Part shown: positions 3,608 to 59,053 of the stretch, piece by piece
Layout: each line of letters opens with the position of its first letter
Numbering within the stretch: position 1 is the first letter of the stretch
DNA from: Phycisphaerales bacterium
GTDB taxonomy: Bacteria; Planctomycetota; Phycisphaerae; Phycisphaerales; SM1A02
DNA: 64,000 nt
Assembly (NCBI GenBank): GCA_029268515.1
Contig: JAQWNP010000010.1
Coordinates: 344,330-408,329, forward strand
Direction of reading: 5' to 3'
The notes under the pieces: model-generated
Seen by the model: the letters and a program-made list of their open reading frames with translations, nothing else
The model's database searches: none
Told to the model about the DNA's origin: nothing
Position numbers and translations under genes: made by a program

Positions 3608-5083
3608 ATGCTGATGACCTTACTAAAACACAGGAGCGCTGTTGTTTCAACATGCGGCGTTATTGGGCTATTGGTCTTCGTTCCCTTGGCAACTGCAGAT
3701 GATCCGCCAACGACTGAGCGCGTCTACTACGACGGTCTTGATGAAGAGGGCAACCTTGTTGGGGGCTTTGTGGAAATGGCAATGCAGCCAATGACAGAGC
3801 ATCGTAGGCATGGATTCCGATCAATGTTTGGTGGGCCAGTTGTCACGACTGTGATTGACAATGGGGATCCTCTCAATCGTATTGATGCTGTATTTGTCGG
3901 CGATGGCTACCAGGCATCAGATTTATCCGCTTATAACAGCCACTGTCAGGCTGGTATTGATCTCTTCTTCTCAACAGAGCCTCTTGCTTCTTATGCCGGG
4001 CTATTCAACGTGCATCGAGTTGATGTGATCTCAAATGAATCAGGTGTTGATAATGATCCTACAGAGGGTATCGATCGTGATACCGCGCTCGATATGAGAT
4101 TCTGGTGTGGAGGAACCGAGCGACTCTTATGTGTCAATACAACATTAGCTTGGAACTTCGCAAACTATGCGCCCGATGCAGATCAGATTTTAGCGGTAGC
4201 GAACTCTACGAAGTATGGAGGCGCCGGCTATTCTTCATCTGAGATAGGCACCTATGCTGGTGGTAATGGTGCAGCTGCTCAAGTAGCGCTGCACGAATTG
4301 GGTCATAGCCTTGGTAATCTCGCAGACGAATATAGTTACGGTGGCAGCGAAACGTATAGTGGTGGGGAACCTTCTGCTCGCAACGTCTCGATCTATGATG
4401 CGAGTGAAATGCAAGCGAACACGACAAAGTGGCACCAGTGGCTCAATTACAATGAGGGTGGTTGGGATGGTCCAGTTGGCACATTTGAGGGTGCGAGCTA
4501 CTCAGAATTTGGCATTTTTCGTCCCAGTAATAATTCATTGATGAGAAGTCTGAATCGTCCCTTTAATCTCCCTTCAGGAGAAGGGCTGATCATCGAGCTC
4601 TACAAAATTGTCGATCCGATTGATGATGCCACGCCACTCTCACCTCCACTGGTTGGTGATGAGCTGATCTTTGTAGATCCAGTAGATCCGGGTGGGAGCA
4701 CACTTGATATCCAATGGTCCATTGATGGTGTAGAAATCGCAGGGGCTACCGGGGAGACATTTGACCTTGCGGACTTTGATCTTGCAACTGGGGATCATTC
4801 CATTTCTGTCAAAGTTGTGGACAACACACCATGGGTTCGCGATGAGGCCGCCCGAGCTTCCTACCTGAGTCAGACACGTACCTGGGAGATTGATAGGCCA
4901 GAAGAACCCTGTGTTGGTGATATCAATGGAGATCTCACTGTAGACCTGGCAGACTTTAGTGTTTTTCTTTTGAATTACGGACTTGAGAGTGGGGGGCCGT
5001 CAGATCTCAACAATGATCTGGTTGTTGATCTGGCAGATTTCTCTTTATTGCTAGTCAACTATGGCAGAGTCTGTTCCGAATAG
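3608..5083 (+). CDS. Secreted M64-type metallopeptidase with dockerin tail
   Basis: Exported zinc peptidase of the IgA-peptidase M64 type. Order: signal peptide (about residues 1-30, ending LATA-DD), an N-terminal region, then the peptidase domain starting near FVGDGYQASDL. The zinc site is HELGHSLGNLADEY, with H229, E230 and H233 and the family's downstream DEY. A short Ig-like region (DIQWSIDGVEIAG) follows, then a C-terminal double dockerin-like module from CVGDINGD to VNYGRVC. The last module has two 12-residue calcium loops of DxNxDxxxDxxD form. Substrate is unknown; M64 members cut glycoproteins or act broadly. Start is supported by AGGAG at 3597. A hairpin terminator follows directly. 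Confidence 0.88.
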   Translation: MLMTLLKHRSAVVSTCGVIGLLVFVPLATADDPPTTERVYYDGLDEEGNLVGGFVEMAMQPMTEHRRHGFRSMFGGPVVTTVIDNGDPLNRIDAVFVGDGYQASDLSAYNSHCQAGIDLFFSTEPLASYAGLFNVHRVDVISNESGVDNDPTEGIDRDTALDMRFWCGGTERLLCVNTTLAWNFANYAPDADQILAVANSTKYGGAGYSSSEIGTYAGGNGAAAQVALHELGHSLGNLADEYSYGGSETYSGGEPSARNVSIYDASEMQANTTKWHQWLNYNEGGWDGPVGTFEGASYSEFGIFRPSNNSLMRSLNRPFNLPSGEGLIIELYKIVDPIDDATPLSPPLVGDELIFVDPVDPGGSTLDIQWSIDGVEIAGATGETFDLADFDLATGDHSISVKVVDNTPWVRDEAARASYLSQTRTWEIDRPEEPCVGDINGDLTVDLADFSVFLLNYGLESGGPSDLNNDLVVDLADFSLLLVNYGRVCSE

Positions 5084-5108
5084 ATCAGGGTATATGTAAA
5101 AAAGAGAC

Positions 5109-5146
5109 AGGCTCTCCCTGGAAGAATCTAGGGAGAGTCTTTTTTA
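5109..5146 (+). terminator. Rho-independent terminator after the M64 gene
   Basis: Stem GGCTCTCCCT pairs with AGGGAGAGTC (one G-T pair) around a 10-11 base loop, followed by TCTTTTTT. It lies about 25 bases past the stop codon. Confidence 0.85.
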
Positions 5147-5534
5147 TGGTGCTCTCAATGACGTGCTCATAAATGGTCTTGAACGCCTCAATGGCCTCTT
5201 CTAAGTTTCCGTAGCTCGTATTTAAAAAAAATATCGTGTCAATGTTTATTGCCCCTCGCCTCGAGCGATGCCGCGTTGATTGATAAGTCGCATACATATT
5301 TTCTGGCGATCGCCCTAATAAAGGAAATGGTGTTTTATTGATTTATAGCCCTTGATTTACAGACGATCTGCTGCCCTCCCTCTCAGCTTGCGATTCATTC
5401 AAATAAATCCCATTGGCTAGCTTTTGAAAAAAGCCTTGTTGTCTTTCGTAGATAATTTGAATTTTTAAGTTGGTAATGAGGGTGCGAATTACAAAACGTA
5501 CTACTTATTAAAGAAAGCAAAAGGAGAATGTCTC
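5147..5534. other. Intergenic, AT-rich leader of the first metzincin gene
   Basis: Nearly 390 bases of AT-rich sequence without a believable gene. A minus-strand open frame here runs into the terminator hairpin and has no ribosome site. AAGGAG about nine bases before 5535 marks the next start. Confidence 0.4.
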
Positions 5535-8500
5535 ATGATAAAACGACTATCTCTATGCGTAGCAAGTCTTGTTTGTGCAATGAGTGCACAGACGACTTAT
5601 GCTCATGAAATCGGAATGAAATTTAACGAGGTTGTTCACACGAGTGATGCAGCTTTTGTTGGTCGTGTGAGTTCGATTACAAGCGTTCCACATCCGTCAG
5701 GTTTTATTTCAACAAAAATAGTTTTTGATGAAGTTTCTGAAGTGTTATCTCGCCCCTCGTCACGTGCTCAGTTGGGGCAAACAGTGACGATCGAAATGGG
5801 TGGGGGCACAGCAGGCAAGGTATCGCTGAGCATGTGTTGCTCGCCGGAGTTTAAGATTGGGGAAGAGTATTTAATTCTCAGTCAACTCGATGGTGGAAAA
5901 TACTTAAACCCATTCTCAGGTGGCCGGCAAGGCATCTTCCGTATTGCCTATGACGATCGTGGTACTGCATATCCACTCACCTACGGATTTCAGGGAATCG
6001 AAAAAGTTGGCGACAAAAAGCTACATCTGACTTCTCAGGTCATCTCACTTCGTGATGGTGTCCCTGAATACAATATCGTTTCTCGAAATCTCAATACGCA
6101 ATCACCAGTCGAAGTGAACGGTAATGGTGCATCGAAGACACGACTTGACTCAACACCAAGGCAGCTCGTCACACTTAATGAATTGGTTGAGTCTATTGGT
6201 CAAATCGCTCAAAGAAAGACGCCAACTGACGTTGAAAAACGGTCGGGGCAACGCCCAGCTTTTCAGGCGCCTCGGCGAATCGGTCAGCGAATGACTGAGA
6301 AACCTGTTTTTGATCAGACGGAACGGCTAGAGAGAGGGACCATTTGCTTTTGTGGTGATGTAGATGATGCAATCACTATGGAGCAAGTGCCCACAGCATG
6401 GACCGCATGGGGTCAAAATAACAACCTCATGTACCGCTTTAATCAGCACACAGACATCTTCACCTACACGGCTTCTGATGGTACTTGGGGAAATAATTGG
6501 GACGATGAGTTCTGCGGTTGGCCAACAAGCGGTCAAATTGCAAATCAATACCAGAGCGGATGGTCCTGGGGTGCTTCAGTCATTGCAGTGTGTTGGACGT
6601 CAGATTTTTGTAGCTGTTGTGAAATCCGTGAAGCTGACATTATGCATAACCCCGCATTTTCCTGGCGTTATGACCTCGATGATGTGATCGGTACCAGCAA
6701 TATTCTCTATCGGCCAACAACACGTCATGAACTTGGGCATGCAGTCGGGCTTGAACGAAGAGCTTGCGGTGCAGAGACCTATAGCTACAACCAACCTTGC
6801 TCAATGACAGCTCATTGGTCTGGTAGTGTCGTAGAAGATGGCAGAGGTATGCACGCCCTTGATGTGTTAGCTTTACGAAATCTTTATATTGACGAAGCCA
6901 TTGAGGATGTCGGCGTTGAGTCCTACTACGCATCGGGTGGTTTGATCAGTTCAACGTTGAGTGACACCAATCTTGAGCCAGGAGATACCTTCAATATCGA
7001 GAATGTGACCGTCGAAAATGTTTCAACGAATTCACAGAGTGGTATTCGCGTCAGAGTTTACTTGTCAGAGAACAAATACATCTCTGAGTATGATTATGAA
7101 CTAGCAGACTTCTCTTTTTCAAACTTTTCAGCAGCGACATTTTGGACTGGTGATTTGACGAGTATTAAAATTCCTGATTCATCGTCAACATCGATACCAG
7201 GTGGTACTTACTATGTTGGACTGATCGCGACACTCGATGGCACTAGCTATTGGTGGGATGATTGCTCTGTCAATAATTCAACATATATTCCTACACAAAT
7301 TACAGTCGGTGATTATGTTCCGAGCTGGACTCCAGGTATCGCTATCCCTTTAGATTTTACATGGCTGTACTATGCACTTCATATAAACAACTCAAACTCT
7401 GAGGATAACAGTGGGCAAGCTTGTGGCGGTGAATTCACAGGCGGTATTTGGTACCGATTTTTCGCAAAACATTCTGGACGCCTTAATCTAGCCATGAAGA
7501 ATGATCAAGAAGAAGGTGGTGGAACAGGCAACAATGAAGGCGATAGGTTTGCGGGTAGCTCTTGTAATGACGCTATTGAAGTGTACGCAGGATTTCCCGA
7601 TACTGGATCTCAGCCGATCGCTCAGGGATGCCGAACATGTGAAGCACCAGTGGTCGCTTCTATTCAAAAAGGCCAAGAGTACTATGTTCGCATAGGTGGA
7701 ATCGATGGTGCTGAAATCAATGGCGTGCTCAGCTTCGATCTTGAGCCTTTTGATTTGATTGGTGACAAGCCAGATCTTGCAATTCCTGCTGGTCATGAAC
7801 CCATTGTTGGTGATATGAATGGTTTTTCTTCTTCGACTGGCGCTGTTTGTACGCAAACGGATGTGATTGATGTGTGGTATCGCTATACAGCACCTGCTTC
7901 AGGTGACATTCGGGCATCAACATGTTCTCCAGCAACTCGTATTGATACGACGCTCGCAATTTATGATCGTGACGGCAATCAAGTTCTTGCCTGTAATGAT
8001 GATGATGAATGTGGAATCTCGGAATCTCAGCAGTCCTCTACAGTCGTTTGGAGTGCTGAAGCAGGACAAGAGTTTTTAGTCCGTGTTGGTGGTCCTGATT
8101 TGATGCGAGGCACCTTTGGTTTGAGCATCGAAGCCGCACCCAATACGCCAAGCAATACTGCCTGTGGTGGTGCGATTTCTGCCTCTACTAATAATCGAAT
8201 GCCATTTTCAACATGGGGTGCTCCATCGCCCGGCCAAGTTTTTGAATGCGATAACAACCGCATTGGCTGTGGCGTTTGGGTTAAGTGGGGTGCCTCCGAA
8301 ACAGGTACCGTTGCGATTGGTACTTCTGAAGACATTGGTGGATCAGCCACATTTGATGCGGCCCTTGCTATCTTCGATTCATGTGAAGAAAACATGAAAC
8401 CAGTTGCATGTAGTATGGATGCTTCCAATACTGGGCAGCCCATTGCTCTTCTCAATGTAGAAGCTGGTGATGTTTACTTTATCTATGTTGGATCGGATGT

Positions 8501-8732
8501 AGATGCTGGGTGCTTAGAAGGCAACGGAATGCTGTCAATGGAGTATCAAGAGCAAGAGTTGTGTGTTGGCGATGCGACTGGAGATAGAACTGTTGATCTT
8601 GATGATTTCAGCGAATTGCTTATACAGTTCGGGTCCACTGGTGAAAGCTCAGCCGACTTTAATGGCGATCTCGTTGTTGATCTCGAAGACTTTAGTCTTC
8701 TTCTTGTGAACTACGGAAACACCTGCTCGTAG
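5535..8732 (+). CDS. Secreted metzincin-like protease, multidomain, dockerin tail (copy 1)
   Basis: Large exported protein of 1065 aa. Signal peptide ends ...TTYA-HEIG (about residue 23). Residues 24-170 form a beta-rich N-terminal domain (AFVGRVSSI, then a Cys pair and YLILSQLDGG) that resembles NTR/TIMP-like secreted modules; this is a guess. Residues about 260-460 are a metzincin-like catalytic domain: EADIMHNP, then HELGHAVGLER at 398-408, and a Met-turn CSMT with M424. The third zinc-ligand position (408) is Arg, not His or Asp. A CARDB-like domain (VGVESYYAS to ITVGDYVP) follows, then three PPC-like beta domains with WYRY/WYRF and YVRIGG motifs, and the dockerin module CVGDATGD...VNYGNTC. 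It has AAGGAG before the ATG and a terminator after the stop. A full-length copy lies downstream. Confidence 0.82.
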   Translation: MIKRLSLCVASLVCAMSAQTTYAHEIGMKFNEVVHTSDAAFVGRVSSITSVPHPSGFISTKIVFDEVSEVLSRPSSRAQLGQTVTIEMGGGTAGKVSLSMCCSPEFKIGEEYLILSQLDGGKYLNPFSGGRQGIFRIAYDDRGTAYPLTYGFQGIEKVGDKKLHLTSQVISLRDGVPEYNIVSRNLNTQSPVEVNGNGASKTRLDSTPRQLVTLNELVESIGQIAQRKTPTDVEKRSGQRPAFQAPRRIGQRMTEKPVFDQTERLERGTICFCGDVDDAITMEQVPTAWTAWGQNNNLMYRFNQHTDIFTYTASDGTWGNNWDDEFCGWPTSGQIANQYQSGWSWGASVIAVCWTSDFCSCCEIREADIMHNPAFSWRYDLDDVIGTSNILYRPTTRHELGHAVGLERRACGAETYSYNQPCSMTAHWSGSVVEDGRGMHALDVLALRNLYIDEAIEDVGVESYYASGGLISSTLSDTNLEPGDTFNIENVTVENVSTNSQSGIRVRVYLSENKYISEYDYELADFSFSNFSAATFWTGDLTSIKIPDSSSTSIPGGTYYVGLIATLDGTSYWWDDCSVNNSTYIPTQITVGDYVPSWTPGIAIPLDFTWLYYALHINNSNSEDNSGQACGGEFTGGIWYRFFAKHSGRLNLAMKNDQEEGGGTGNNEGDRFAGSSCNDAIEVYAGFPDTGSQPIAQGCRTCEAPVVASIQKGQEYYVRIGGIDGAEINGVLSFDLEPFDLIGDKPDLAIPAGHEPIVGDMNGFSSSTGAVCTQTDVIDVWYRYTAPASGDIRASTCSPATRIDTTLAIYDRDGNQVLACNDDDECGISESQQSSTVVWSAEAGQEFLVRVGGPDLMRGTFGLSIEAAPNTPSNTACGGAISASTNNRMPFSTWGAPSPGQVFECDNNRIGCGVWVKWGASETGTVAIGTSEDIGGSATFDAALAIFDSCEENMKPVACSMDASNTGQPIALLNVEAGDVYFIYVGSDVDAGCLEGNGMLSMEYQEQELCVGDATGDRTVDLDDFSELLIQFGSTGESSADFNGDLVVDLEDFSLLLVNYGNTCS

Positions 8733-8757
8733 GCAATCTAGAAATCTTGTCTTTCAA

Positions 8758-8794
8758 GGGGCTCTCTCGAATGATTCGGGAGAGCCCTTTTTTT
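8758..8794 (+). terminator. Strong Rho-independent terminator
   Basis: Perfect nine-base stem GGGCTCTCT/GGAGAGCCC-type hairpin around TCGAATGATTC, then TTTTTTT, 25 bases after the stop of copy 1. Its stem resembles that after the M64 gene. Confidence 0.9.
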
Positions 8795-9069
8795 AAAAAA
8801 GAGATCATGCCCATAAAGCACCCAATACAGATTGGCAGTCCGGGGTGATAGATCTAAGTGAATAATTCAGGGCTTGTATCGCGTTCTAGGCAAGCAAAAA
8901 AGGGGGCACAAAAAGGGGGATTAAATTTTGGCTTCTTGGTGAGGGTTTTTGGTTTATTACTCCAAGGTAAGTCTGCTAGAGTTGAGGTCGGTGAGAGCCG
9001 AGTGGGGGTAGAAATCTACTTCCTCATTGATCAATGTGACTACCTACACACATAAGGGAGTGGAGGGCT
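8795..9069. other. Intergenic between the two metzincin copies
   Basis: About 275 bases. A 65-codon open frame (8858-9055) starts here, but its composition and lack of a ribosome site argue against a gene. GGAGTGGAGGG ends five bases before the ATG at 9070. Confidence 0.4.
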
Positions 9070-12000
9070 ATGAGAACTATTATCGCTTTGTGCGTTTGTG
9101 TCATTGGGAGCCTTTTTATAAAGGAATCGACCCTGGCACATGAAATTGGCTTGGGTTTTAACCAAGTGGTGCATACGAGTGATGCAGTGTTCGTTGGGCG
9201 CGTGGCTTCGATAAATGGCACAGCGAACAAGAGCGGTTTTATCTCGACTGAAATAGTTTTTGAGCAGGTGTCGCCGATCGTAGCGCGTTCGAGTGCACAA
9301 GCATATATTGGCGAAAAAGTGAAGATTCGCTTTGGTGGTGGAACCGCTGGCGGTGTTTCGTTGAGTATGTGTTGCGCGCCAAAGTTTGAAATAGGTCAGG
9401 AGTACCTCATATTTTCACAGTTAGATGATGGCCAGTACTTAAATCCATTTTCAGGTGGTCGTCAGGGCGTGTTTCCAATTGCATACGATCGTGGCGGAAA
9501 TGCGTATCCATTGACGTATGGGTATCAAGGAATAGATCGCATTTCGAGAACACGCCTTCATCTGACGGCACCAGTGATCTCGCTTCGTGATGGTGTTCCC
9601 GAGTACAGAATGGTTTCTGAGCACATGCATACACAAGCACCATTTGAGCTTGATGGTAATGGTGTTGCCCAGACACATGTAGAGCCAACTCCACGAAAAC
9701 TAGTGACCCTTCAGGAAATGGTCGTCGCAATCAGTGAGATTGCTCAGCAGCAAACGCCAGTTCAAGTTGAAAAACGTTCTGGAAAACGACCGAAATTTGG
9801 CAAGGCTCAGCGCCTGAATCAACAGCGTCCTGTCGGCTCTGTGTTTGATCGTGCGGATCGAATGAATCAAGGCATTATCTGTTATTGCGGAGATGTTGGT
9901 AGCAATATAACAATGGAACAGGTCCCGGAGTCTTGGACTTCGTGGGCGCAAAACAACAACATTATGTACCGTTTCAATCAGCAAGTAGATGTCTTTACTT
10001 ACTCTGATGATGATGGTGGATGGGACAGCAACTTCGAAGATGAGTTCTGTGGTTGGGCAACAAGTGCTCAAGTCGCGAGTGCCTATGGTAGTGGTTGGTC
10101 ATGGGGTGCCTCAGCAATTGCTGTCTGCTGGACAACAGATGCTTGTGGCTGTTGCAATATTGCTGAAGCTGACATTATGCATAATCCCGCATTTTCCTGG
10201 CGTTATGACCTCGATGATGTGATCGGCACCAGCAATATTCTCTATCGGCCAACAACGCGTCACGAACTCGGGCACGCGTTGGGCCTGGAACGTGGTAACT
10301 GTGCCGCAGAAACCTATGCCTATAACCAACCCTGCTCAATGACCGCTCATTGGTCGGGGAGTGTTGTAGAAGATGGAAGGGGTTTACATGCTCTGGATGT
10401 TTTGGCATTGCGAGCGTTGTATCCAGATGAGTCTATTGAAGATGTAGGTGTTGAGTCTTACTACGCATCGACTAACTTATTAACTGCCACACTAAGTGCA
10501 ACGCTATTCGACCCCGGTGATTCATTTGATATTGACAACATAACCGTTGAGAATCTATCAAGTAATTCACAAAGTAGTATTCGGGTGCGCGTGTATTTAT
10601 CTTCTAATAAAAATATCACCGAATCTGATTACGAGATAGCCGAGTTTAGTTTTGGCACGATCAATCCCGGAAAATATTGGACGGGCGACCTCAACGGAAT
10701 AACGATTCCAAATACTTCATCAACAGCGATTCCTGGTGGTACTTACTATGTTGGCTTAATTGCGACATTAGATGGTGACGACTACTGGTGGGATGAATGT
10801 TCGGTTAACAACGCGACCTATATTCCAACTCAAATAACAGTTGGCGATTATGTTCCTAGCTACACGCCAGGTCTTGCAGTACTGATTAATTTTGATTGGT
10901 TATACGCTAGATATCATGTCAACAATGCTAATTCGCCAGGCAATGGTGGGGATGCTTGTGGAGAGGAATTGACTGGTAGTGTTTGGCACTATTTTGTTGC
11001 TCCTCATGCCGGGAAATTATCACTTTCCAATCAAAATGATGAAGGTGAAAGTGATGAATCAAATAATAACTTCGGCGCAAACTTTGCAGGCAATCTTTGT
11101 AACGATGTCATCGAGGTTTATGAAGGATTCCCAGATATTGGTTCCAGCCCTATTGGCCAAGGGTGTCGATCGTGTGAAGAGCCAGTGGTCGCATATGTTG
11201 CACAGGGGCAGACATACTACGTTCGAATCGGTGGTATCAATGGCGCTCCAGTCAATGGAATCTTCAATCTGGAAATCGAACCTTATGAGACAATTGGTGA
11301 TCGACCCGATTTAGCGCGTCCAATTGTGCACGAGCCAATGTTTGGAAATCTCGAGGGGTTGACGACCACATTTGGACCTGTTTGCGCACAGTCAGATATT
11401 ATCGATGCGTGGTATCGGTATGAGGCGCCTGCTCATGGACTCGTTCGTGCGTCAACCTGTGATCCAGGAACTCAGATTGATACAACAATTGCAGTGTTTA
11501 ATACTCAGGTAAGCCAGCTGTTTGCTTGTAATGACAATACCCAATGTAGCTACTCAGGTTCTGAAAAGGCTTCCACTGCGATTTGGGGGGCCGAAGCGGG
11601 GCAGGTATTTCTGATTCGGGTTGCTGGTACACCCGGCGCACTTGGCGCATTCACACTCAATGTTGAGCCAGTTGCAGATCAGGCCAGTAATACGACTTGC
11701 CAAGGTGCTTTTTCAGCGGGTAGCGATCACAAAGTTCCATTTTCTACCTGGGGTGCAGCCGTGCCGGGTGATCTTGTTTCGTGCGAGGGGAATCGCGTTG
11801 GCTGCGGGGTGTGGATCAAGTGGGCCTCGCCAGAATCTGGAAGGGTTGCCATTGGCACATCTGTTGACATCGGCGGTTCTTCTTCTATCGATGCAGCGCT
11901 GGCCATCTTTGATGCCTGTGGTACCAGTAAGGATCCAGTTGCATGTAGTATTGACGCTTCAAATACTGGGCAACCAATCGCCTATCTCGACGTGATTCAA

Positions 12001-12270
12001 GGTGATAGTTACTTCATCTACATCGGGTCAGATTTTGACATGGGTTGTCTTGATGGAAGCGGCATACTTTCAATTGAATATCAAGAGCAGGAGATCTGCG
12101 TTGGTGATGCCACTGGAGACAGTATTGTGAATCTTGACGATTTTAGTCAGCTACTTATTGAGTATGGTGCGACTGGTGAGAGCTCAGCTGACTTCAACGG
12201 TGATTTGGTGGTTGATCTCGAAGACTTTAGCCTGCTTCTTATAAACTATGGCAATATCTGCCCGAGTTAA
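9070..12270 (+). CDS. Secreted metzincin-like protease, multidomain, dockerin tail (copy 2)
   Basis: A 1066-aa paralogue of the preceding protein with identical domain order: signal peptide (ending TLA-HEIG), NTR-like N-domain with the shared block LNPFSGGRQG, catalytic domain, CARDB-like domain, PPC-like domains and dockerin. The catalytic motif HELGHALGLER falls on the same residue numbers (398-408), again with Arg at the third ligand position, and the Met-turn CSMT is kept. Near-identical stretches cluster around the active site (for example NPAFSWRYDLDDVIG), while linkers and PPC loops have diverged. The dockerin CVGDATGD...INYGNIC is followed by a weak terminator that matches the one after the next gene. 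The GGAGTGGAGGG ribosome site is close to the ATG. Own promoter likely, as a strong terminator precedes it. Confidence 0.82.
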   Translation: MRTIIALCVCVIGSLFIKESTLAHEIGLGFNQVVHTSDAVFVGRVASINGTANKSGFISTEIVFEQVSPIVARSSAQAYIGEKVKIRFGGGTAGGVSLSMCCAPKFEIGQEYLIFSQLDDGQYLNPFSGGRQGVFPIAYDRGGNAYPLTYGYQGIDRISRTRLHLTAPVISLRDGVPEYRMVSEHMHTQAPFELDGNGVAQTHVEPTPRKLVTLQEMVVAISEIAQQQTPVQVEKRSGKRPKFGKAQRLNQQRPVGSVFDRADRMNQGIICYCGDVGSNITMEQVPESWTSWAQNNNIMYRFNQQVDVFTYSDDDGGWDSNFEDEFCGWATSAQVASAYGSGWSWGASAIAVCWTTDACGCCNIAEADIMHNPAFSWRYDLDDVIGTSNILYRPTTRHELGHALGLERGNCAAETYAYNQPCSMTAHWSGSVVEDGRGLHALDVLALRALYPDESIEDVGVESYYASTNLLTATLSATLFDPGDSFDIDNITVENLSSNSQSSIRVRVYLSSNKNITESDYEIAEFSFGTINPGKYWTGDLNGITIPNTSSTAIPGGTYYVGLIATLDGDDYWWDECSVNNATYIPTQITVGDYVPSYTPGLAVLINFDWLYARYHVNNANSPGNGGDACGEELTGSVWHYFVAPHAGKLSLSNQNDEGESDESNNNFGANFAGNLCNDVIEVYEGFPDIGSSPIGQGCRSCEEPVVAYVAQGQTYYVRIGGINGAPVNGIFNLEIEPYETIGDRPDLARPIVHEPMFGNLEGLTTTFGPVCAQSDIIDAWYRYEAPAHGLVRASTCDPGTQIDTTIAVFNTQVSQLFACNDNTQCSYSGSEKASTAIWGAEAGQVFLIRVAGTPGALGAFTLNVEPVADQASNTTCQGAFSAGSDHKVPFSTWGAAVPGDLVSCEGNRVGCGVWIKWASPESGRVAIGTSVDIGGSSSIDAALAIFDACGTSKDPVACSIDASNTGQPIAYLDVIQGDSYFIYIGSDFDMGCLDGSGILSIEYQEQEICVGDATGDSIVNLDDFSQLLIEYGATGESSADFNGDLVVDLEDFSLLLINYGNICPS

Positions 12271-12340
12271 AATCTTTCACTATTGTAGAATTTTTCTGCA
12301 AACAAGTAAGCCCGTCTTGACATTACTTAAGGCGGGTTCT
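12124..12340 (+). repeat. Dockerin-plus-terminator module, copy A
   Basis: From the first calcium loop of copy 2's dockerin to its terminator. It matches 14136-14354 at nearly equal length, through coding and 3' untranslated sequence. Shared runs include AATCTTGACGATTTTAG and GCAAACAAGTAAGCCCGTCT. Confidence 0.85.
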
Positions 12341-12345
12341 TTACT
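12310..12345 (+). terminator. Weak terminator after metzincin copy 2
   Basis: Stem CCCGTCTT pairs with AAGGCGGG (one G-T pair) and the T tract is interrupted (TTCTTTACTTT). It is a degraded version of the hairpin at 14321. Confidence 0.65.
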
Positions 12346-12440
12346 TTCGGAGCGAGCCAAGGGATCAATACTGAGTCGCGGATCGGCACTATAGTGTTTG
12401 AATACCATGACCTTTTCGTGGGGTCAAAGGAGTTTAAAAC

Positions 12441-14282
12441 GTGATTCATCAATTCATGAAGATCACCGTCTTCGCCGGTGCATTCGTCACCATGGCATGC
12501 GCTATGGTTGGATGCAGTTCCAGCGGTTCGATCGATCCGGCAATGTTGCAGGCCGAAGCACGCCCGCCGCAGTGGCCGGTCGGATGGACCCCTGACACCG
12601 GCCGTGAACGTCCCGACAATGTTCCAACCATCGCCATGGATGCCAATGGTTGGGCGAAAACGACGGTCACTCCGGTGATTATCGATACGCGAAAATTCCC
12701 AAAGCAGCGCCAGGCTCACGAAACCGATCCGGGCCCCGGCGTCCGTCCCGGCACGCTGCTCCGCGCCCACAAGCGAGACAAGACGCTTCCCCCGGGCCCC
12801 CGACTGGATCTCCCGCTTGGTCGGTTGCTAGAAGAGCCGCGCGTCGATGCAGCTCCGAATTTCCCGGCGATTTCCGCCACGGTCTGGACGCCGCCCGATC
12901 CAACGCTTGCGGTCGGACCCGATCACATCGTCGCGACGGTGAACATGGCGATCGCCTTCTATGACCGTGATGGCAACGAACAGTTCTATGCCAACCTCGA
13001 CAGCACGGGTAGTCCCGGTTTCTTCGAGACAGTCGGTTCGGGCGATTTCTGCTTCGATCCCAAGTGCTTCTACGATCCATACAGCGAACGATTCTTTGTG
13101 CTTGCCCTTGAGTTCTACGACTCGAGTGGTGAATCATGGATCACCGTCGCGGTGTCCGATGACAGTGACCCCAACGGCGTCTGGTACAAGTACCGCACTT
13201 GGGCCGTCTTGACGATCGAAGGCTCCGACTACTGGGTCGACTACCCGGGGCTTGGATTCAACGAAGACACTTTCTACACCACCAACAACCTCTTCCTGCT
13301 GTCCGGCAGTGGGCCGGGTTTCCGCGGAGCGATGTATCGATTGTTCCCGAAGGCGCCCATGCTCGTCGGTGACCCGGTGACATGGACCGATGTCAACGAT
13401 ACGAGCTCAGCGTCCGTGCAGTGTGCGCAGATATACGATGCACCTCCAGGAACGCCGCCGTTCTTCGTCTCCGGTGATTCCAGTTCGTCCATGAAGATTC
13501 AGGCCATCCGTTCCGAGGGTGGTCAACCGGATCTGCGTTCCGCATCCGTGGCCATACCCGGTCATGACGGCGGCCCTCCCGGTGCGGTGAACCCCGGTGG
13601 CTCCATCAATGCGCTTGACGGTCGGCTGATGAACGTCAATTGGCGAAATGGCCAGCTCTACACTGCGCATGCCATCGAATCAGGCAACCGTTCCGAGTCC
13701 CGCTGGTATCACTTCGACACCGGCAATTGGCCCGGCGTCAGCGGCAATCCGCCGTCGCCCACGCTCGTCCAAAGCGGCGCCATCGATTTCCCGGAGGGAC
13801 AGCACTCGTTCTATCCCGCCATCGCATCCAACAAGTACGACGATGTCGGACTGGTGATCGGCTACTGCCGGAGCGACCTCAATCCCAACGTGCAGGTCAC
13901 GGGTCGAATGAAGACCGACTCCGCCGGTTCGATGGGATCACCGGTGATCGTGGTTGAAAGTCCTTCCGGAGCCGACGGTCGATGGGGTGATTACTTTGAT
14001 CTGACGGTCGACCCGCTTGATGACACCACGTTCTGGTACATTGGCGAGTGGGCGTCCAATGGTGGTTGGCAGACCTGGATCGGAAGCTTCGAAGTGACCG
14101 AACCGAGATGTGACGGAGACGCCAATGGCGACAACATTGTCAATCTTGACGATTTTAGCCAGCTACTTATTCAATATGGTACGACCGGTGAGAGCACAGC
14201 TGACTTCAACGGAGATCTTGTAGTCGATCTCGAAGACTTTACGCTGCTTCTTATAAACTATGGGAATGTCTGCTCGAATTGA
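12441..14282 (+). CDS. GC-rich exported lipoprotein, beta-propeller-like, with dockerin tail
   Basis: Secreted 613-aa protein. GTG start with AAAGGAG at 12426-12432; signal peptide with lipobox MVGC (Cys about residue 24). The body has the PPDPTLAVGPDHIVATVN block and repeated sheet motifs (YDPYSERFFVLA, VSDDSDPNG, SGDSSSS) known from large secreted bacterial proteins that look like beta-propellers; function unknown. The C-terminal dockerin runs from CDGDANGD to INYGNVC. The body is far richer in G+C than its surroundings: by hand count 62% at 12901-12960 and 70% at 13741-13800, against 47% at 14161-14220 in its own dockerin and 38% at 11041-11100 in the neighbour. Dockerin and downstream terminator are a near copy of those of the upstream gene. 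I infer an acquired body joined to a local tail. Confidence 0.8.
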   Translation: MIHQFMKITVFAGAFVTMACAMVGCSSSGSIDPAMLQAEARPPQWPVGWTPDTGRERPDNVPTIAMDANGWAKTTVTPVIIDTRKFPKQRQAHETDPGPGVRPGTLLRAHKRDKTLPPGPRLDLPLGRLLEEPRVDAAPNFPAISATVWTPPDPTLAVGPDHIVATVNMAIAFYDRDGNEQFYANLDSTGSPGFFETVGSGDFCFDPKCFYDPYSERFFVLALEFYDSSGESWITVAVSDDSDPNGVWYKYRTWAVLTIEGSDYWVDYPGLGFNEDTFYTTNNLFLLSGSGPGFRGAMYRLFPKAPMLVGDPVTWTDVNDTSSASVQCAQIYDAPPGTPPFFVSGDSSSSMKIQAIRSEGGQPDLRSASVAIPGHDGGPPGAVNPGGSINALDGRLMNVNWRNGQLYTAHAIESGNRSESRWYHFDTGNWPGVSGNPPSPTLVQSGAIDFPEGQHSFYPAIASNKYDDVGLVIGYCRSDLNPNVQVTGRMKTDSAGSMGSPVIVVESPSGADGRWGDYFDLTVDPLDDTTFWYIGEWASNGGWQTWIGSFEVTEPRCDGDANGDNIVNLDDFSQLLIQYGTTGESTADFNGDLVVDLEDFTLLLINYGNVCSN

Positions 14283-14354
14283 GATATGTCACTATCGTTG
14301 AATTGATCTGCAAACAAGTAAGCCCGTCTTGACATGACTCAAGGCGGGCTTTTT
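14136..14354 (+). repeat. Dockerin-plus-terminator module, copy B
   Basis: Second copy of the module at 12124-12340. The match continues past the stop codon into non-coding DNA up to the end of the hairpin, so it cannot be explained by protein constraint. The hairpin here is intact, whereas copy A's is partly decayed. Confidence 0.85.
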
Positions 14355-14355
14355 C
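14321..14355 (+). terminator. Rho-independent terminator after the GC-rich lipoprotein gene
   Basis: Ten-base stem AGCCCGTCTT/AAGGCGGGCT (one G-T pair), loop GACATGACTC, then TTTTTC. Confidence 0.85.
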
Positions 14356-14531
14356 TATAGGGAATGAAGTGAGCAAGACTCAGTCACTCATAATCAACTG
14401 AGAGTGGCTATGGGTCCATTTCAGCACTGTACATAGAAGAGGGCAGGAATCGGCTAAAAGATAGAGAACAAGAGTGGTTGACTTCGGTAGGGGCGGGTAC
14501 TATCACCGAGACGTCAAAAAAGGAACCATGA

Positions 14532-33343: not shown

Positions 33344-36058
33344 TCAGCGAATCATTCTAGATGGTCGGGATCGGCCATTGTTTGCCGATCTTTGGGGCGC
33401 ATTGCGCAATGGTTCTTCTTCGCATGTCGCACCGAACAAAATCAAAAACCAACTGAAGTCTGCGAGATCGACAACACCATCAGTATTAATATCTGCTGAG
33501 CATTCAGTCATGCAGCCCCACTCGATCAGCATAATGGAAAAGTCATCGATGTCGACAATGTTGTTATTATCGATGTCCGCATCACAAGAAAACACTTCGC
33601 ATTCATCTGGTGTGCCATTTTCATTATTATCAACGCTACTACCAGATGCAATATCACATTGGTCAGATATTCCGTTGGCATTGCAGTCAATGAGGGGTTC
33701 ACGAGGCTCGCAACTGTCTGGAATGCCATTGGCGTTGCAGTCTTGGGTCGGGTCAGCAGTATCGTACTCATCAGGGATGCCATTTAGATTGCAATCCAAG
33801 CTTGTGCCTGTCGCAATATCACAGCTATCTAGAACATTATTAAAGTTGAAGTCCGTAGCAGAGCCGGCAGCAATGTCCTGGATATCCGGAATTCCGTTGA
33901 GGTTGCAATCATCACACTCTCCTGTGGCGATGTCGCAAGGTTCGACAACTTTGATCTTCTGATCGGCTGGTACGTCCGTTAAGGTGACCTCTCGCCCATT
34001 TGGAAAACGCACGTGAAGCGTGTCGATCATTCCATTTGGTCCTAAGCCAAAGTGTGCTGGAAGCATGTGCGCTGCGAAATAGCCAGATCCTGACTCAATT
34101 TCTCTGATCTGGCTCACACCATTGGTTGTGACCGTAATTCGTGCTCCGATGGCACTTCGATTTGAAACGGTTCCAATACACTCAATCTCAATCCAGTGAG
34201 CACCGTTATTGAGATCATTTCGAATCAGGCGATTCGATACTGGAGCGCCAGTCGTATTTGCGATGCACACAATGACATCCATATCACCATCGCCATCATA
34301 ATCTGCCCAGCTCGCACTATTTGCATTTGTAATGCCAACAAGAAAAGGGCCACTGGCAACATTGCTAAATACAGGGTTGCCTGAGCTATCTATTCCATCA
34401 TTCTGAAGTAGCATCAAATTGGCATAAGAATTGACGAGTAGAAGATCAAGATCCATGTCATTATCAAAGTCAACCCAACTATGACAGCGAGAATGGCCCG
34501 TATATCCAAGATCACCAGTTGTAACTTCGGCGAAATTGCCGTTGCCATCGTTTCTAAAAAGCTGGTTGTTGCCACCAAAGTCAATCGAGCCTCGCGCATT
34601 GTGTGGTAAGCCATTTATTTCAAGTAAATCACCCATAAGGGTAAGGTCTTTAGCTGAACCTAAATGATTTTCAGATCGAAGCGGCTCGCCACAACTAACT
34701 TCTTCGCATATGGAGTTGTCGCCACGATAGGATCCGCCTAATTCAAGGCAAGAAGTCTCAGAAATATTAATGCAACCAATGCTTGTGCAACAGGCACCAA
34801 TTGTATCGGTGGTTGTACATTCAGAAAAATCGCAGTTTGTACCATTTGCGTCATACTCGCCGCCAAGAATGTCGCAGTCGGATTCTGTGAGGATAACACA
34901 AGAGTCAAGCGTGACGCAGCAGGCGCCTTCTGATGAAGCGATCGGGCACATTTGTGTGGCGCATGCAGTTTCGTCTCCTTTGAAAGATCCACCAATATTC
35001 TCGCAATCTGTTGCGTAGGATTCTTGGCATGATCCATCGGGTAAACAGCAGGCACCAAATTGATCACAAATGATTTCTTCACAGAGAACACCATGGCCAC
35101 CATAGACGCCAAAATATTCATTCGTGCAGTTGTAATTAGAATCGATCGTGCAGAAGATATTGTCAACACAACAGCTACCTACATTGACATAGATTGCAGA
35201 AAGATAGAGATCTAGATCCCCATCATTATCATAATCTCCCCAAGAAACACCTCTGGTATGAGTATTTGAGTTGAGTGGTGGGGTGCTCGCATCTACAAAA
35301 ATACCGCCATCATTACGGTACATTCGATTAATCCGCTCGTTATTGAGATTTGGTGTTCCATCTGGACTGTCACCGTTCGCAAGATAGATGTCAGGATCAC
35401 CATCATTGTCGTAGTCAGAGAAGGTGACACCACGTCCAATCGCTTCATCTTCGACAGGGCCAATGTCACTTTGTTGCTGAAAGGTGCCACCGCCCATGTT
35501 CCTAAGCAATCGGTTGCCTAGATCAGATCCATATTTTGTTGAAATATAGATATCAATTAGGCCATCCTGGTCATAGTCCCCCCAGGCTGCCGTGCGGGTC
35601 AGTTTGCCATTGTTCTTGAGTGGTTCACCGTTTGTAATATCAGTAAAACCATCTAAGCCGTCATTGCGTAAGAGATGGCTGTCTCGGCTTTGCGCAATAA
35701 ATAAATCGACATCACCATCATTATCAACGTCAGCCCAGACACTTCGGCCAGAGTAGTACTCGCCAGTGGGTGTAACGACTTCGGTTGTCACTTCAGTAAA
35801 GCTATCACCGCCATTGTTTTGATAGAGTTTGTTTGGCTGTGCCCAATTTGTAATGTACAGATCGAGATCGCCATCATTGTCATAGTCTGCCCAGGAGGCA
35901 CCGCGCGTGTTGCCACTGCCGATCGTTCCACTGGTTACTTCGGTCCAGCTCTGAGACGGGTGCTCTTTTCCTGTTGTCCATGAAGTCAGCGTAGCAATCG
36001 CGCCCCCAGTGATCATGAGCAAGCCTGCAAGAGTTCTCTTATTGAGCCGGCTAAACAA
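33344..36058 (-). CDS. Secreted VCBS/FG-GAP propeller with Cys-rich repeats, ASPIC/UnbV domain and dockerin
   Basis: 904 aa. Membrane-spanning signal peptide at residues 8-28. Residues 35-290 hold VCBS/FG-GAP blades with calcium loops such as WADYDNDGDLDLYI, the CRTAC1 type. Residues about 291-455 are four cysteine repeats of the form GACC...C......C...GG......C....C, set inside the propeller. Blades then resume (DFDNDMDLDLLLV), followed by an ASPIC/UnbV domain (near RITVTTNGVSQIREIESG). From about 713 to 823 come five DCNxNGIPD calcium repeats, then a dockerin of the WGC...C subtype. After the last dockerin Cys, a 25-residue basic tail (ending SRMIR) continues, unlike the other tailed proteins here. 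Surface adhesin or calcium-binding role is likely; no enzyme motif seen. Confidence 0.82.
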   Translation of the reverse strand: MFSRLNKRTLAGLLMITGGAIATLTSWTTGKEHPSQSWTEVTSGTIGSGNTRGASWADYDNDGDLDLYITNWAQPNKLYQNNGGDSFTEVTTEVVTPTGEYYSGRSVWADVDNDGDVDLFIAQSRDSHLLRNDGLDGFTDITNGEPLKNNGKLTRTAAWGDYDQDGLIDIYISTKYGSDLGNRLLRNMGGGTFQQQSDIGPVEDEAIGRGVTFSDYDNDGDPDIYLANGDSPDGTPNLNNERINRMYRNDGGIFVDASTPPLNSNTHTRGVSWGDYDNDGDLDLYLSAIYVNVGSCCVDNIFCTIDSNYNCTNEYFGVYGGHGVLCEEIICDQFGACCLPDGSCQESYATDCENIGGSFKGDETACATQMCPIASSEGACCVTLDSCVILTESDCDILGGEYDANGTNCDFSECTTTDTIGACCTSIGCINISETSCLELGGSYRGDNSICEEVSCGEPLRSENHLGSAKDLTLMGDLLEINGLPHNARGSIDFGGNNQLFRNDGNGNFAEVTTGDLGYTGHSRCHSWVDFDNDMDLDLLLVNSYANLMLLQNDGIDSSGNPVFSNVASGPFLVGITNANSASWADYDGDGDMDVIVCIANTTGAPVSNRLIRNDLNNGAHWIEIECIGTVSNRSAIGARITVTTNGVSQIREIESGSGYFAAHMLPAHFGLGPNGMIDTLHVRFPNGREVTLTDVPADQKIKVVEPCDIATGECDDCNLNGIPDIQDIAAGSATDFNFNNVLDSCDIATGTSLDCNLNGIPDEYDTADPTQDCNANGIPDSCEPREPLIDCNANGISDQCDIASGSSVDNNENGTPDECEVFSCDADIDNNNIVDIDDFSIMLIEWGCMTECSADINTDGVVDLADFSWFLILFGATCEEEPLRNAPQRSANNGRSRPSRMIR

Positions 36059-55812: not shown

Positions 55813-58728
55813 ATGCAATGGTCTTATTCAGTGTCCATGCGTTGTTCGGCAATGATGGCATCAGCAGCATTACTTTGCTTTACATATAGCGGGCTCACTC
55901 AAGAAGTGGTGGAAGTGGGTAAGGGCTCTTACTACGCAACCATTCCTGATGGATATGAGCGGCCAAGCAATAACAACGGGCAGGTTGTTACGCCACGCGT
56001 CAGCGATACATTCCAGGGTGCAATTCCTACGAATGAGTGGTGGAGTTCACTGATCTGGGAAAGGTATGCGGGAAATTCGACCGGGCAAAACATGTATCCA
56101 CTGCCTTTGGCACTGAAAGCTCAGCAAGGAGGGCTTAGCCTAGCGCATTTAAAGGGTTTTAGTATTAGTGACGTGGCCTATTTTCAGCCTTTCAATGCGG
56201 CAGTCACTGTTGGTGTAGAAGGCCTGCTGGCATCAGAAGTAGAAGTCGCCCATGCAGGGGATTGGTCAGTCACGGCGTCGTGGTCTGATGATGAACATTC
56301 AATGCAGGCGACTTTTGGGCATGGTCTCCCATACGTTTACTTTGATATTGCCGGTGGTGACATCATTGTTGAGATCGATGAGGTGCAGGGAACCCTAATA
56401 ATTGATCAGAGTACGGTGGTGTTCGATGTGGCTGGTGCTCGTTATGCATTATTTGCTCCAACGGGATCCCAGTGGACACAAGATGGGCCATCAGTTCTGC
56501 GTTCAGCACTCGATGGTCGAGGTTATCTCAGTATTGCAGCACTTCCTGATGCTTCAAGTAAGACACTCTCACTCTTTAAGGAGCATGCTCATGTCGTGGT
56601 CCAAGACACACAAGCATCTTGGACTTATGACGAACAGGCAGGCGTAGTCAATGCGCACTTTGAATTGGAAGTGAATGTCAAAGAAGGAAAGCAAACGGAA
56701 CCTTTGGCAGCACTATTCCGACATCAATGGTTGCATACCGCGCATCCCATGCTCGGTATAAGCTATGCCTCACCTCGCGGCCTTATGAAGTTAGTTAAAG
56801 CAAAAACGTTTGATGTCGCTTTGCCATATGCAGGACTGATGCCTTGGATTCCTGAAACAGGAGCAGTCGATGATTCGCGCCTCACTCAATTCTTGCAAGA
56901 GGCATTTGCTGAGCCAGAGTTATTTTCAGCGCCCGATACATACTGGTTAGGCAAGGCACTGGGGCGAGCGGCCCAGCTTCTGCCTTTGGCCGAGCAGGTG
57001 GGGATGAACGTTGAAAAAGAGCAGCTTATAGAACAGATGAAGACAGAGTTAGAAGATTGGCTCACTGCTGGCTCCGCATCAGGTGATGTAGAGAACGGCG
57101 AGCTTTCTGCGTACAGCAAAATCGAAGCTGAAAATTATGATCAAGCAAATGGTGTCGCAGTCTGTACTGATCAAAACGAAATACAAGCGGTATGCAGTTT
57201 TGGCGATGGTGACTGGATTCAAATAAGTGACGTTGATTTCGGTGTCACTGATCCTCCTGGAGCAGTACTGCGGGTTGCTTCTGGTGTTGGTGTCGGTGGC
57301 AGTGCATTGGTGGAGTTACGGCTGGATTCATTTGACGGACCACTTGTTGGAAATGGAGCAATTGCCAATACAGGTGGTTGGGATGTATGGACTGACTTTA
57401 GTATTGCTGTGAGAAGTGAGGTGCTAGAGCAGTTAGACGGTATTCATGATCTATACGTTGTTTGTGATACAGGGTATCCAGGTGATGTATGGAATCTTGA
57501 TTGGCTTCAGTTTGATGGGGGCAATGGTGGATCATCAGGTGGGACAGATGAAACATTCTTCGCTCGTGACGATACATGGAGCACATTGATCGGCTATCCA
57601 TCTTCATATGGCTCCGCGGGTGAGCTTAATGATCATCATTTTCACTACGGCTACTTTATTACTGCAGCTGCTTTCGTTGCAATTCATGATCCGGAGTGGG
57701 CCGCATCAAATCAGTGGGGAGGCATGATTGATTTACTTATCAAAGATGCAGCCAACTGGGAGCGAGACGATGATCGCTACCCATACCTTCGTAACTTTGA
57801 TCCATACGCTGGCTACTCATTAGCATCTGGGCACCAAGGTTTTGCATCAGGAAACAATCAAGAGTCATCTTCAGAGGCGATCAATTTTGCATATGGCGTG
57901 ATGCTTTGGGGGCAGGCGACGGGACGGGCTGAGATTCGAGATCTTGGTATTTATCTCTATGCAAGTGAAGCCGCTGCAATTGCTCAATACTGGTTTGATG
58001 TAGATAACGTGGTATTTCCTACTGCATTCCCTCATCCCATGATCTCGATTGTTTGGAATAACGGCGGCGACTATGCCACCTGGTGGACAGGTAATGTTGA
58101 GGAAATACATGGCATCAACATCTTGCCAGTAACAACCGCAACGCTACATTTGGGGCATTGGCCGCAGATGATTCAAGACAACTGGAACTACTTGCTGAGT
58201 CGAAATCCAGGCCAGCCAACTGTGTGGCAAGACATCTTGTGGAGTTTTCTGGCCATGAGCAGTGGTCAGGAAGCACTTGAGGCCTTTGATTTGAATCAAA
58301 GCTATGCGCCAGAGCCTGGTGATTCTCGAGCACACACCTATCAGTGGTTGGCAAGCATGAACCACCTCGGGCAGGTTGTTTCTGACGTCACTGCTGACAT
58401 TGCTAGCTATGCCGTGTTTGAGAATGGTGGACAGCGAACATACATGGCATGGAATCCAACAAGTGAGGAAAGGCAGGTTGTGTTCTCGGATGGATTTACG
58501 GCTTGTATTGCTGCGCAGACTATTCAAACATTGAATGATCAAGAAGTGGTTTGTCAGTGTCAGGGTGATCTTAATGGCGACAGTCAGGTCAACATCAGTG
58601 ATTTTACAATATTCCTTATTGCGTTCGGGCAAACAGGGGAGAACCAAGCGGACTTCAATGGCGATCTCATTGTCGATATCAACGACTTTTCCATATTTCT
58701 CATTGGCTTCGGGTCAGTCTGCCAGTGA
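55813..58728 (+). CDS. GH81 endo-beta-1,3-glucanase with inserted CBM6-like domain and dockerin
   Basis: 971 aa exported enzyme that should cut laminarin-type beta-1,3-glucan. Signal peptide ends near GLTQ-EVV. The GH81 N-terminal beta-sandwich begins at VTPRVSDTFQGAIPTNEWWS; the helical catalytic part has NDHHFHYGYF (D607) and NNQESSSEAINFAYG (E684, E688), the family's acid and base region. Between the halves, residues about 432-568 are a CBM6-like module (KIEAENYDQANGV ... NLDWLQFDGG) with a Gly/Ser linker, inserted where plain GH81 proteins run straight on. The C-terminal dockerin is CQGDLNGD...IGFGSVC. GGAG lies 11 bases before the ATG. Laminarin use fits a marine heterotroph. Confidence 0.9.
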   Translation: MQWSYSVSMRCSAMMASAALLCFTYSGLTQEVVEVGKGSYYATIPDGYERPSNNNGQVVTPRVSDTFQGAIPTNEWWSSLIWERYAGNSTGQNMYPLPLALKAQQGGLSLAHLKGFSISDVAYFQPFNAAVTVGVEGLLASEVEVAHAGDWSVTASWSDDEHSMQATFGHGLPYVYFDIAGGDIIVEIDEVQGTLIIDQSTVVFDVAGARYALFAPTGSQWTQDGPSVLRSALDGRGYLSIAALPDASSKTLSLFKEHAHVVVQDTQASWTYDEQAGVVNAHFELEVNVKEGKQTEPLAALFRHQWLHTAHPMLGISYASPRGLMKLVKAKTFDVALPYAGLMPWIPETGAVDDSRLTQFLQEAFAEPELFSAPDTYWLGKALGRAAQLLPLAEQVGMNVEKEQLIEQMKTELEDWLTAGSASGDVENGELSAYSKIEAENYDQANGVAVCTDQNEIQAVCSFGDGDWIQISDVDFGVTDPPGAVLRVASGVGVGGSALVELRLDSFDGPLVGNGAIANTGGWDVWTDFSIAVRSEVLEQLDGIHDLYVVCDTGYPGDVWNLDWLQFDGGNGGSSGGTDETFFARDDTWSTLIGYPSSYGSAGELNDHHFHYGYFITAAAFVAIHDPEWAASNQWGGMIDLLIKDAANWERDDDRYPYLRNFDPYAGYSLASGHQGFASGNNQESSSEAINFAYGVMLWGQATGRAEIRDLGIYLYASEAAAIAQYWFDVDNVVFPTAFPHPMISIVWNNGGDYATWWTGNVEEIHGINILPVTTATLHLGHWPQMIQDNWNYLLSRNPGQPTVWQDILWSFLAMSSGQEALEAFDLNQSYAPEPGDSRAHTYQWLASMNHLGQVVSDVTADIASYAVFENGGQRTYMAWNPTSEERQVVFSDGFTACIAAQTIQTLNDQEVVCQCQGDLNGDSQVNISDFTIFLIAFGQTGENQADFNGDLIVDINDFSIFLIGFGSVCQ

Positions 58729-59053
58729 TTGGTTATTGGTACTTGAGTGGGCAACTAAATAGGAAACGCTATTCATATTTGAAAGTGGATTTGTGAGGAT
58801 GACATCGTGAAGAAAGACACAAGGAAGTGCGGTCGAAAGAGCCAATAACGTAGGCGCGCCTAAATAAGTCGATTTTTTTGAGCGCGCTGAATTGTGAGAC
58901 ACAGCTGAATGAAATCTTTTTGTATTTTGAGGGTTGACTGTTGTCTACAAATCGTAAAATTTGTTGTGAAAGAGGCGTTGCCTTTTTTTTAAAATCGTGC
59001 GAGGAGAACGCACATATGTTCCGAATGAGTTCAAGAAGAAGGACTGATCGAGT
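58729..59053. other. Intergenic leader of the di-heme oxidoreductase gene
   Basis: About 325 bases. Holds a small AGGC-GTT-GCCT hairpin with eight T (about 58972-58990), then GTGCG-AGGAGAA-CGCAC (58997-59013), which puts an AGGAG ribosome site in a hairpin loop, followed by an ATG at 59016 opening a 34-codon frame that overlaps the start of the next gene. A weak TTGACT...TAAAAT pair lies at about 58935. These suggest a regulated leader but none is proven. Confidence 0.4.

Follow-up and report, generated by a model that had tools for sequence, protein, structure and literature searches.

A beta-propeller lipoprotein gene in this planctomycete has very probably been acquired from a second genus of its family, here called g5, and its DLL-type dockerin replaced by a DFS-type dockerin, with the following 3' DNA and terminator, from the adjacent protease gene metz2. 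In many bacteria, dozens of secreted proteins that are otherwise unrelated end in a common C-terminal tag (dockerins, PEP-CTERM and T9SS tails), and it is seldom possible to see how a newly acquired protein gains the right one. In the present case a single locus shows the steps, with the donor tag, the recipient tag, a junction inside the tag, the neighbouring gene as source and the terminator included, giving a rare view, base by base, of an imported protein fitted with the recipient's address label. Domain shuffling and the transfer of proteins that bear a tag are events of a known kind; what is new is a record that reaches down to the junction, together with tag dialects that differ by genus. 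We found no named precedent for tail replacement in the open literature.

The locus and the matching gene ends

The window is the whole 64,000-nucleotide stretch of DNA that was analysed, part of a draft assembly of 20 contigs (genome 3.2 Mb, 4.2% estimated contamination). Three genes stand in tandem on its forward strand, each with a C-terminal dockerin-like tail. The first two, metz1 (5535–8732) and metz2 (9070–12270), are metzincin paralogues that are 63% identical. metz2 encodes a secreted metzincin-type protease with the motif HELGHALGLER and a dockerin tail in the host dialect (12097–12270, VNLDDFSQLLIEYG ... VDLEDFSLLLINYG), and is followed by 3' untranslated DNA with a terminator hairpin (12271–12342; core at ~12310–12337, z = −4.2 against shuffles). 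An intergenic and 5' region (12343–12440), in which an AAAGGAG-like ribosome-binding site lies immediately 5' of the GTG, leads into the lipoprotein gene (12441–14282), whose 613 residues comprise a signal peptide with lipobox, the beta-propeller body and a two-repeat dockerin. Counted from 3608 to 14282, four dockerin-tagged genes stand in a row: an IgA peptidase M64-type protease (Pfam, 1e-46), the two metzincins and the propeller lipoprotein.

The end of the lipoprotein gene is a close copy of the end of metz2. Positions 14115–14354 align with 12103–12342 at 85% identity over 240 nt, ungapped and at an offset of 2012, with E = 2e-73 in a search of the whole genome. The 72 nt beyond the stop codon (14283–14354 against 12271–12342) are likewise 85% identical, and each copy has a terminator hairpin, that of the lipoprotein gene lying at ~14320–14351 (−21.7 kcal/mol, z = −4.3). 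Outside the aligned block identity drops at once, to 4/15 at 14095 and to 2–5/15 after 14365. No second place in the 3.2-Mb genome matches past the coding part, the next-best matches to the tail piece being 68–73% identical and limited to coding DNA. The upstream paralogue metz1 serves as a control: it has a host-dialect tail resembling that of metz2, and its 3' untranslated DNA and terminator are unrelated. The first-pass annotation had proposed, from 12124–12340 and 14136–14354, that the 3' end of the lipoprotein gene, non-coding DNA and terminator included, nearly matches that of metz2; on alignment the match was recovered without gaps at 85%, widened to 240 nt of which 72 are non-coding, and stood well above that to any other dockerin gene. 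Homology beyond the terminators (12343–12400 against 14355–14412) is doubtful and is not claimed, a short stretch giving p = 0.006 and a longer one p = 0.11.

An AlphaFold2 model of the lipoprotein (pLDDT 81) gives the body a beta-propeller fold. Sequence searches of Pfam, NCBIfam and the PDB placed it in no family, and Foldseek returned generic beta-propellers, sialidases and arabinanases among them. Because these matches are only generic and of low TM-score, we claim no enzyme activity. The simplest reading is that the body may be a module for binding or catalysis that is secreted, each lineage adding a sorting tag of its own.

Origin of the propeller body

The body of the lipoprotein gene (12516–14120) differs sharply in composition from its surroundings. 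Its G+C content is 60.3% (54.5–69% in 200-nt windows) and its GC3 0.70; for the tail of the same gene the values are 45.8% and 0.475, and for metz2 the G+C content is 46.9% over the gene and ~42% over the last 200 nt. The GC3 of the 36 other genes in the window is 0.43 ± 0.04 with a maximum of 0.52, which puts the body at z = 6.8. In a one-change model the best GC3 change-point within the gene falls at base 14136, on a broad likelihood peak; this is the base at which the alignment proposed at first pass begins, and it coincides with the alignment junction described below. The compositional contrast noticed earlier is therefore real, although the figures then given, 62–70% and 38%, were extremes of single rows.

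Relatives of the body were sought in 151 genomes, mostly from the same family and order, and were present in 67. The nearest, at 88% amino-acid identity, belongs to the g5 genome G072 (locus L092, contig JAQWRC010000408.1, Phycisphaerales cluster2_bin.268); identities to the other two g5 genomes are 73–75% and to g8 62–64%. In the tree of the body the window gene is sister to G072 (support 0.998) and lies within g5 (1.0), with g8 outside. The identities of rpoB, compared over a 585-residue reading frame, conflict with this tree and group the host with its congener G001 (96%, against 80% for host and g5), so that the body is closer to G072 than rpoB is between the same genera. The congener genome, which is 89% complete, has no homologue of the body. 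In G072, G047 and G005 the gene sits in one conserved neighbourhood of convergent moaA, lipoprotein ORF, DNA-methylase-like ORF and dockerin ORF, as read from the ORFs, with moaA confirmed by Pfam in L092. The host copy stands alone between metz2 and an unrelated ORF.

These data bear on the idea that the gene was inherited vertically, propeller and dockerin being ancestral to the family, the GC-richness a local bias and the neighbouring tails homogenised by concerted evolution. The combination of body and dockerin is widespread in the family, and some other host dockerin genes reach a GC3 of 0.6–0.67. Vertical descent should, however, place the window gene at the host's position rather than inside g5, and it fits poorly with a body identity above that of rpoB, a congener that has no homologue and a different gene neighbourhood; we consider it very improbable. 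Tree conflict, donor-like composition and changed neighbourhood are found together, and they support horizontal transfer from the g5 lineage, within the same family of Phycisphaerales, as the very probable origin of the body. The earlier suggestion that the body is foreign is borne out by its place in the tree (0.998–1.0) as well as by its composition.

The synonymous divergence between the body and its closest relative, that in G072, is dS 1.28, the exact donor being unsampled; between host and G001 it is higher, at 1.98 for rpoB and 1.80 for MMSDH, in keeping with the tree. The dN/dS of the body against G072 is ~0.07, which indicates purifying selection and hence that the body has been kept functional. 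At the 5' side the L092 contig breaks off at query residue 58 and DNA homology to g5 begins at 12561, and the 5' junction should lie somewhere between 12343 and ~12560; the contigs of the congener stop inside the flanks (C199 in metz1, C284 in an MFS gene) and do not cover the insertion site. The viral contigs searched held no relative of the body and the plasmid relatives are distant (H1–H11, 23–28% identity, with Streptomyces, Deinococcus, Hymenobacter and haloarchaea among the hosts), so that no transfer vector is identified; the annotation of one plasmid relative includes a PEPxxWA-CTERM sorting tag.

Replacement of the tail and its junction

Each of the 26 aligned relatives of the body has its own dockerin-like tail at the C-terminus, and the immigrant was therefore already tagged on arrival. 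The tails of the g5 relatives follow the pattern VDVxDLLxVIAxWG (CDGDATGDNFVDVSDLLAVIAEWG...DGSGTVDVGDLLMIIANWN in G072) and that of the window gene the host pattern VDLxDFSxLLIxYG (CDGDANGDNIVNLDDFSQLLIQYG...FNGDLVVDLEDFTLLLINYG), joined inside the first calcium loop. Alignment with MAFFT shows the lipoprotein gene to be donor-like up to this loop and metz2-like beyond it. The junction zone (14103–14135), comprising the start of the dockerin and the first calcium loop CDGDANGDN, is donor-like still. At the DNA level the resemblance to L092 extends as far as 14135, and from 14136 the sequence resembles metz2 through the remainder of the dockerin (14136–14282, with the DF[S/T] code in both repeats) and the copied 3' untranslated DNA and terminator (14283–14354). 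The similarity thus switches abruptly from L092 to metz2 and takes in non-coding DNA, as expected of local tail replacement; judged from these alignments, the donor-type dockerin was replaced by the host tail, not newly gained. The first-pass annotation had described a foreign protein that received the host tail by recombination. Local copying stands, the non-coding match being unique in the genome, but "received" does not, as the gene's own tail was replaced.

Could the exchange have taken place elsewhere, the gene arriving with its DFS tail from an unsampled relative of that dialect and resembling metz2 by coincidence or through later conversion? With the nearest body relative at dS 1.28 there is room for an intermediate host, but the 72 nt of non-coding DNA with the terminator match only the adjacent gene genome-wide, and a source that is the neighbour merely by coincidence is unlikely. 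We regard this history as quite improbable. An assembly artefact, in which the assembler fused a g5-like body from a contaminant to host DNA, is extremely unlikely: the lipoprotein tail is identical to no other host locus (85% to metz2), so that a chimera would presuppose a third dockerin gene missing from the assembly, the reading frame is intact, and the gene, flanked by host-type sequence, is embedded in a contig of 445 kb. What speaks for such an artefact is that the genome is a draft with 4.2% estimated contamination and that the junction falls in a conserved stretch of ~17 nt, GATGCCAC[C/T]GGAGACA, which L092 and metz2 both carry at the junction zone. In the preferred reading, acquisition from g5 with replacement of the tail, this shared stretch is plausibly the site of exchange.

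The residues of metz2 before the junction, EYQEQEICVGDATGD, are those of metz1, and those of the lipoprotein (CDGDANGDN) are those of the g5 tails, so that metz2 is the likely source of the tail. The opposite direction, in which metz2 acquired tail and terminator from the lipoprotein gene, gains something from the cut congener contig, which leaves no outgroup to polarise the metz2 3' untranslated DNA. Against it stand the metz1-like residues in metz2 and the host dialect of both metzincin tails, with the g5-like loop on the other side, and it is highly unlikely. From the junction on, the lipoprotein and metz2 tails differ by dS ~0.38, with ~15% difference in the non-coding part. These values date the copying after speciation, more recently than both the host/G001 split (dS ~1.8–2.0) and the body/G072 split, and as not very recent; the earlier term "recent" is right relative to the G001 split but not in the sense of a fresh event. 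Intermediate events may be hidden because the pair of tails differs by ~15%, and the gene may have been inserted and its tail exchanged in one event or in two.

With metz2 as the source, a lipobox-bearing beta-propeller gene with a g5 DLL dockerin would have entered the host by horizontal transfer, and recombination would have begun within the first calcium loop, in the conserved ~17 nt that donor-type and host dockerins have in common. The exchange between the two tandem genes, whether a gene conversion or an unequal crossover, would have run through the terminator, giving the gene a host-type tag and 3' end while the body retained its donor composition. Elsewhere in the host genome two neighbouring dockerin genes, L043 and L044 (G000:C1:356578–357712), share 90% identity over 142 nt in their tails and may be another instance of tail copying between neighbours.

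Genus dialects and known dockerin systems

Tails were compared between the host (n = 67) and the g5 genome G005 (n = 41). Those of the host were retrieved with a host-type query and those of G005 with a g5-type one, so that each sample is biased; the query of opposite dialect returned mostly tails of each genome's own dialect, and the collections are not a full census. In these samples two DF[S/T]-type repeats are found in 57 of the 67 host tails and two D[LIV]L repeats in all 41 of those from G005, where DF does not occur (0/41). The positions of the repeat that differ between host and g5 are 10 (L/V), 13 (F/L), 14 (S/L), 16 (L or F/V), 17 (L/I), 18 (V or I/S or A) and 20 (F or Y or W/W). Profile log-odds of host over g5 are +33.9 and +38.7 for the two repeats of the window gene and −20.6 and −25.5 for those of G072. 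With the host genus DF-type and g5 D[LIV]L, the immigrant has therefore been brought over to the local dialect. The code seems to go with the genome and not with the protein family, since propeller and metzincin, two unrelated families, share a similar genus code in g7 (VDGADLSILL and VDGVDLAELL) and likewise in g19. Among the few host exceptions, L176 and L179 lie in a GC-richer stretch of contig C2. Two of the few host tails that are not DFS, one D[VI]L and one DLL (L248 and L249, G000:C2:5500–18500), lie within 10 kb of each other at ~55–58% G+C and are candidates for immigrants awaiting retagging, or for contamination.

The tail of the window gene has two tandem calcium-loop repeats (D-x-[ND]-x-D...D), with positions 1, 3, 5 and 12 present in both; at least 91% of the sampled repeats have D at positions 1 and 12, and a helix is predicted after each loop (residues 569–578 and 597–605). 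We call it dockerin-like because its scores fall below both curated cut-offs, 14.8 against 22.9 for PF00404 (type I dockerin) and 20.9 against 29 for NF041540 ("GC-type dockerin domain-anchored protein"). It shares with both families the two calcium-loop repeats with a helix, the C-terminal position and the occurrence on many secreted proteins per genome, but here the residues after the loop form a genus code (DFSxLL in the host, DLLxVI in g5). The host genome has 86 dockerin-tail matches (E up to 1) and no match to the Pfam cohesin PF00963 at E ≤ 1, a profile that divergent cohesins could escape. The tail may serve as a surface or complex anchor.

In anaerobic fungi, horizontally acquired enzymes have been fused to the dockerins of the recipient. 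There too a foreign catalytic body carries a docking tag of recipient type; what differs here is that the donor protein already bore a dockerin, in a different dialect, and that the new tag came with its terminator from the adjacent gene. Within the planctomycetes, the "planctosome" hypothesis proposes a cohesin/dockerin peptide-degrading complex in Nemodlikiaceae with cohesin-bearing anchoring and adaptor proteins (PMC6461901). The likeness lies in planctomycete dockerins on secreted peptidases, without a link to cellulose (PMC6461901). The planctosome model has cohesin proteins, however, and since none was detected in the host with PF00963, the present system does not correspond to it as far as tested. 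In cellulosomes the specificity of dockerins for their partners is generally considered species-specific (PMC12484212), which parallels the genus dialects; here, by contrast, no scaffoldin or cohesin was found and the variable positions include 10, 13, 14, 16, 17, 18 and 20 of each repeat.

The retagged gene would have persisted if the tails are genus-specific address tags read by a partner, an immigrant being useful only with the local tag. A broader and tentative proposal is that each genus of Phycisphaerales might mark dozens of its secreted proteins with a dockerin dialect of its own, for which a putative receptor other than a cohesin would be the reader, and that transferred genes might become functional only once recombination with one of the resident dockerin genes, at the calcium-loop DNA, has overwritten their tag. 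Given that no cohesin was found, the clean genus code makes the question of the receptor a testable one.

Two other features of the window may be mentioned. A GH81 endo-beta-1,3-glucanase with CBM6 and a dockerin (55813–58728) adjoins a di-haem oxidoreductase with a CBM56 match (59054–61828), and together (55813–61828) they look like a tagged pair for beta-glucan utilisation. Seven degenerate 42-nt direct repeats at 34268–35893, inside a gene on the minus strand (33344–36058), possibly encode calcium-binding or propeller-type repeats.
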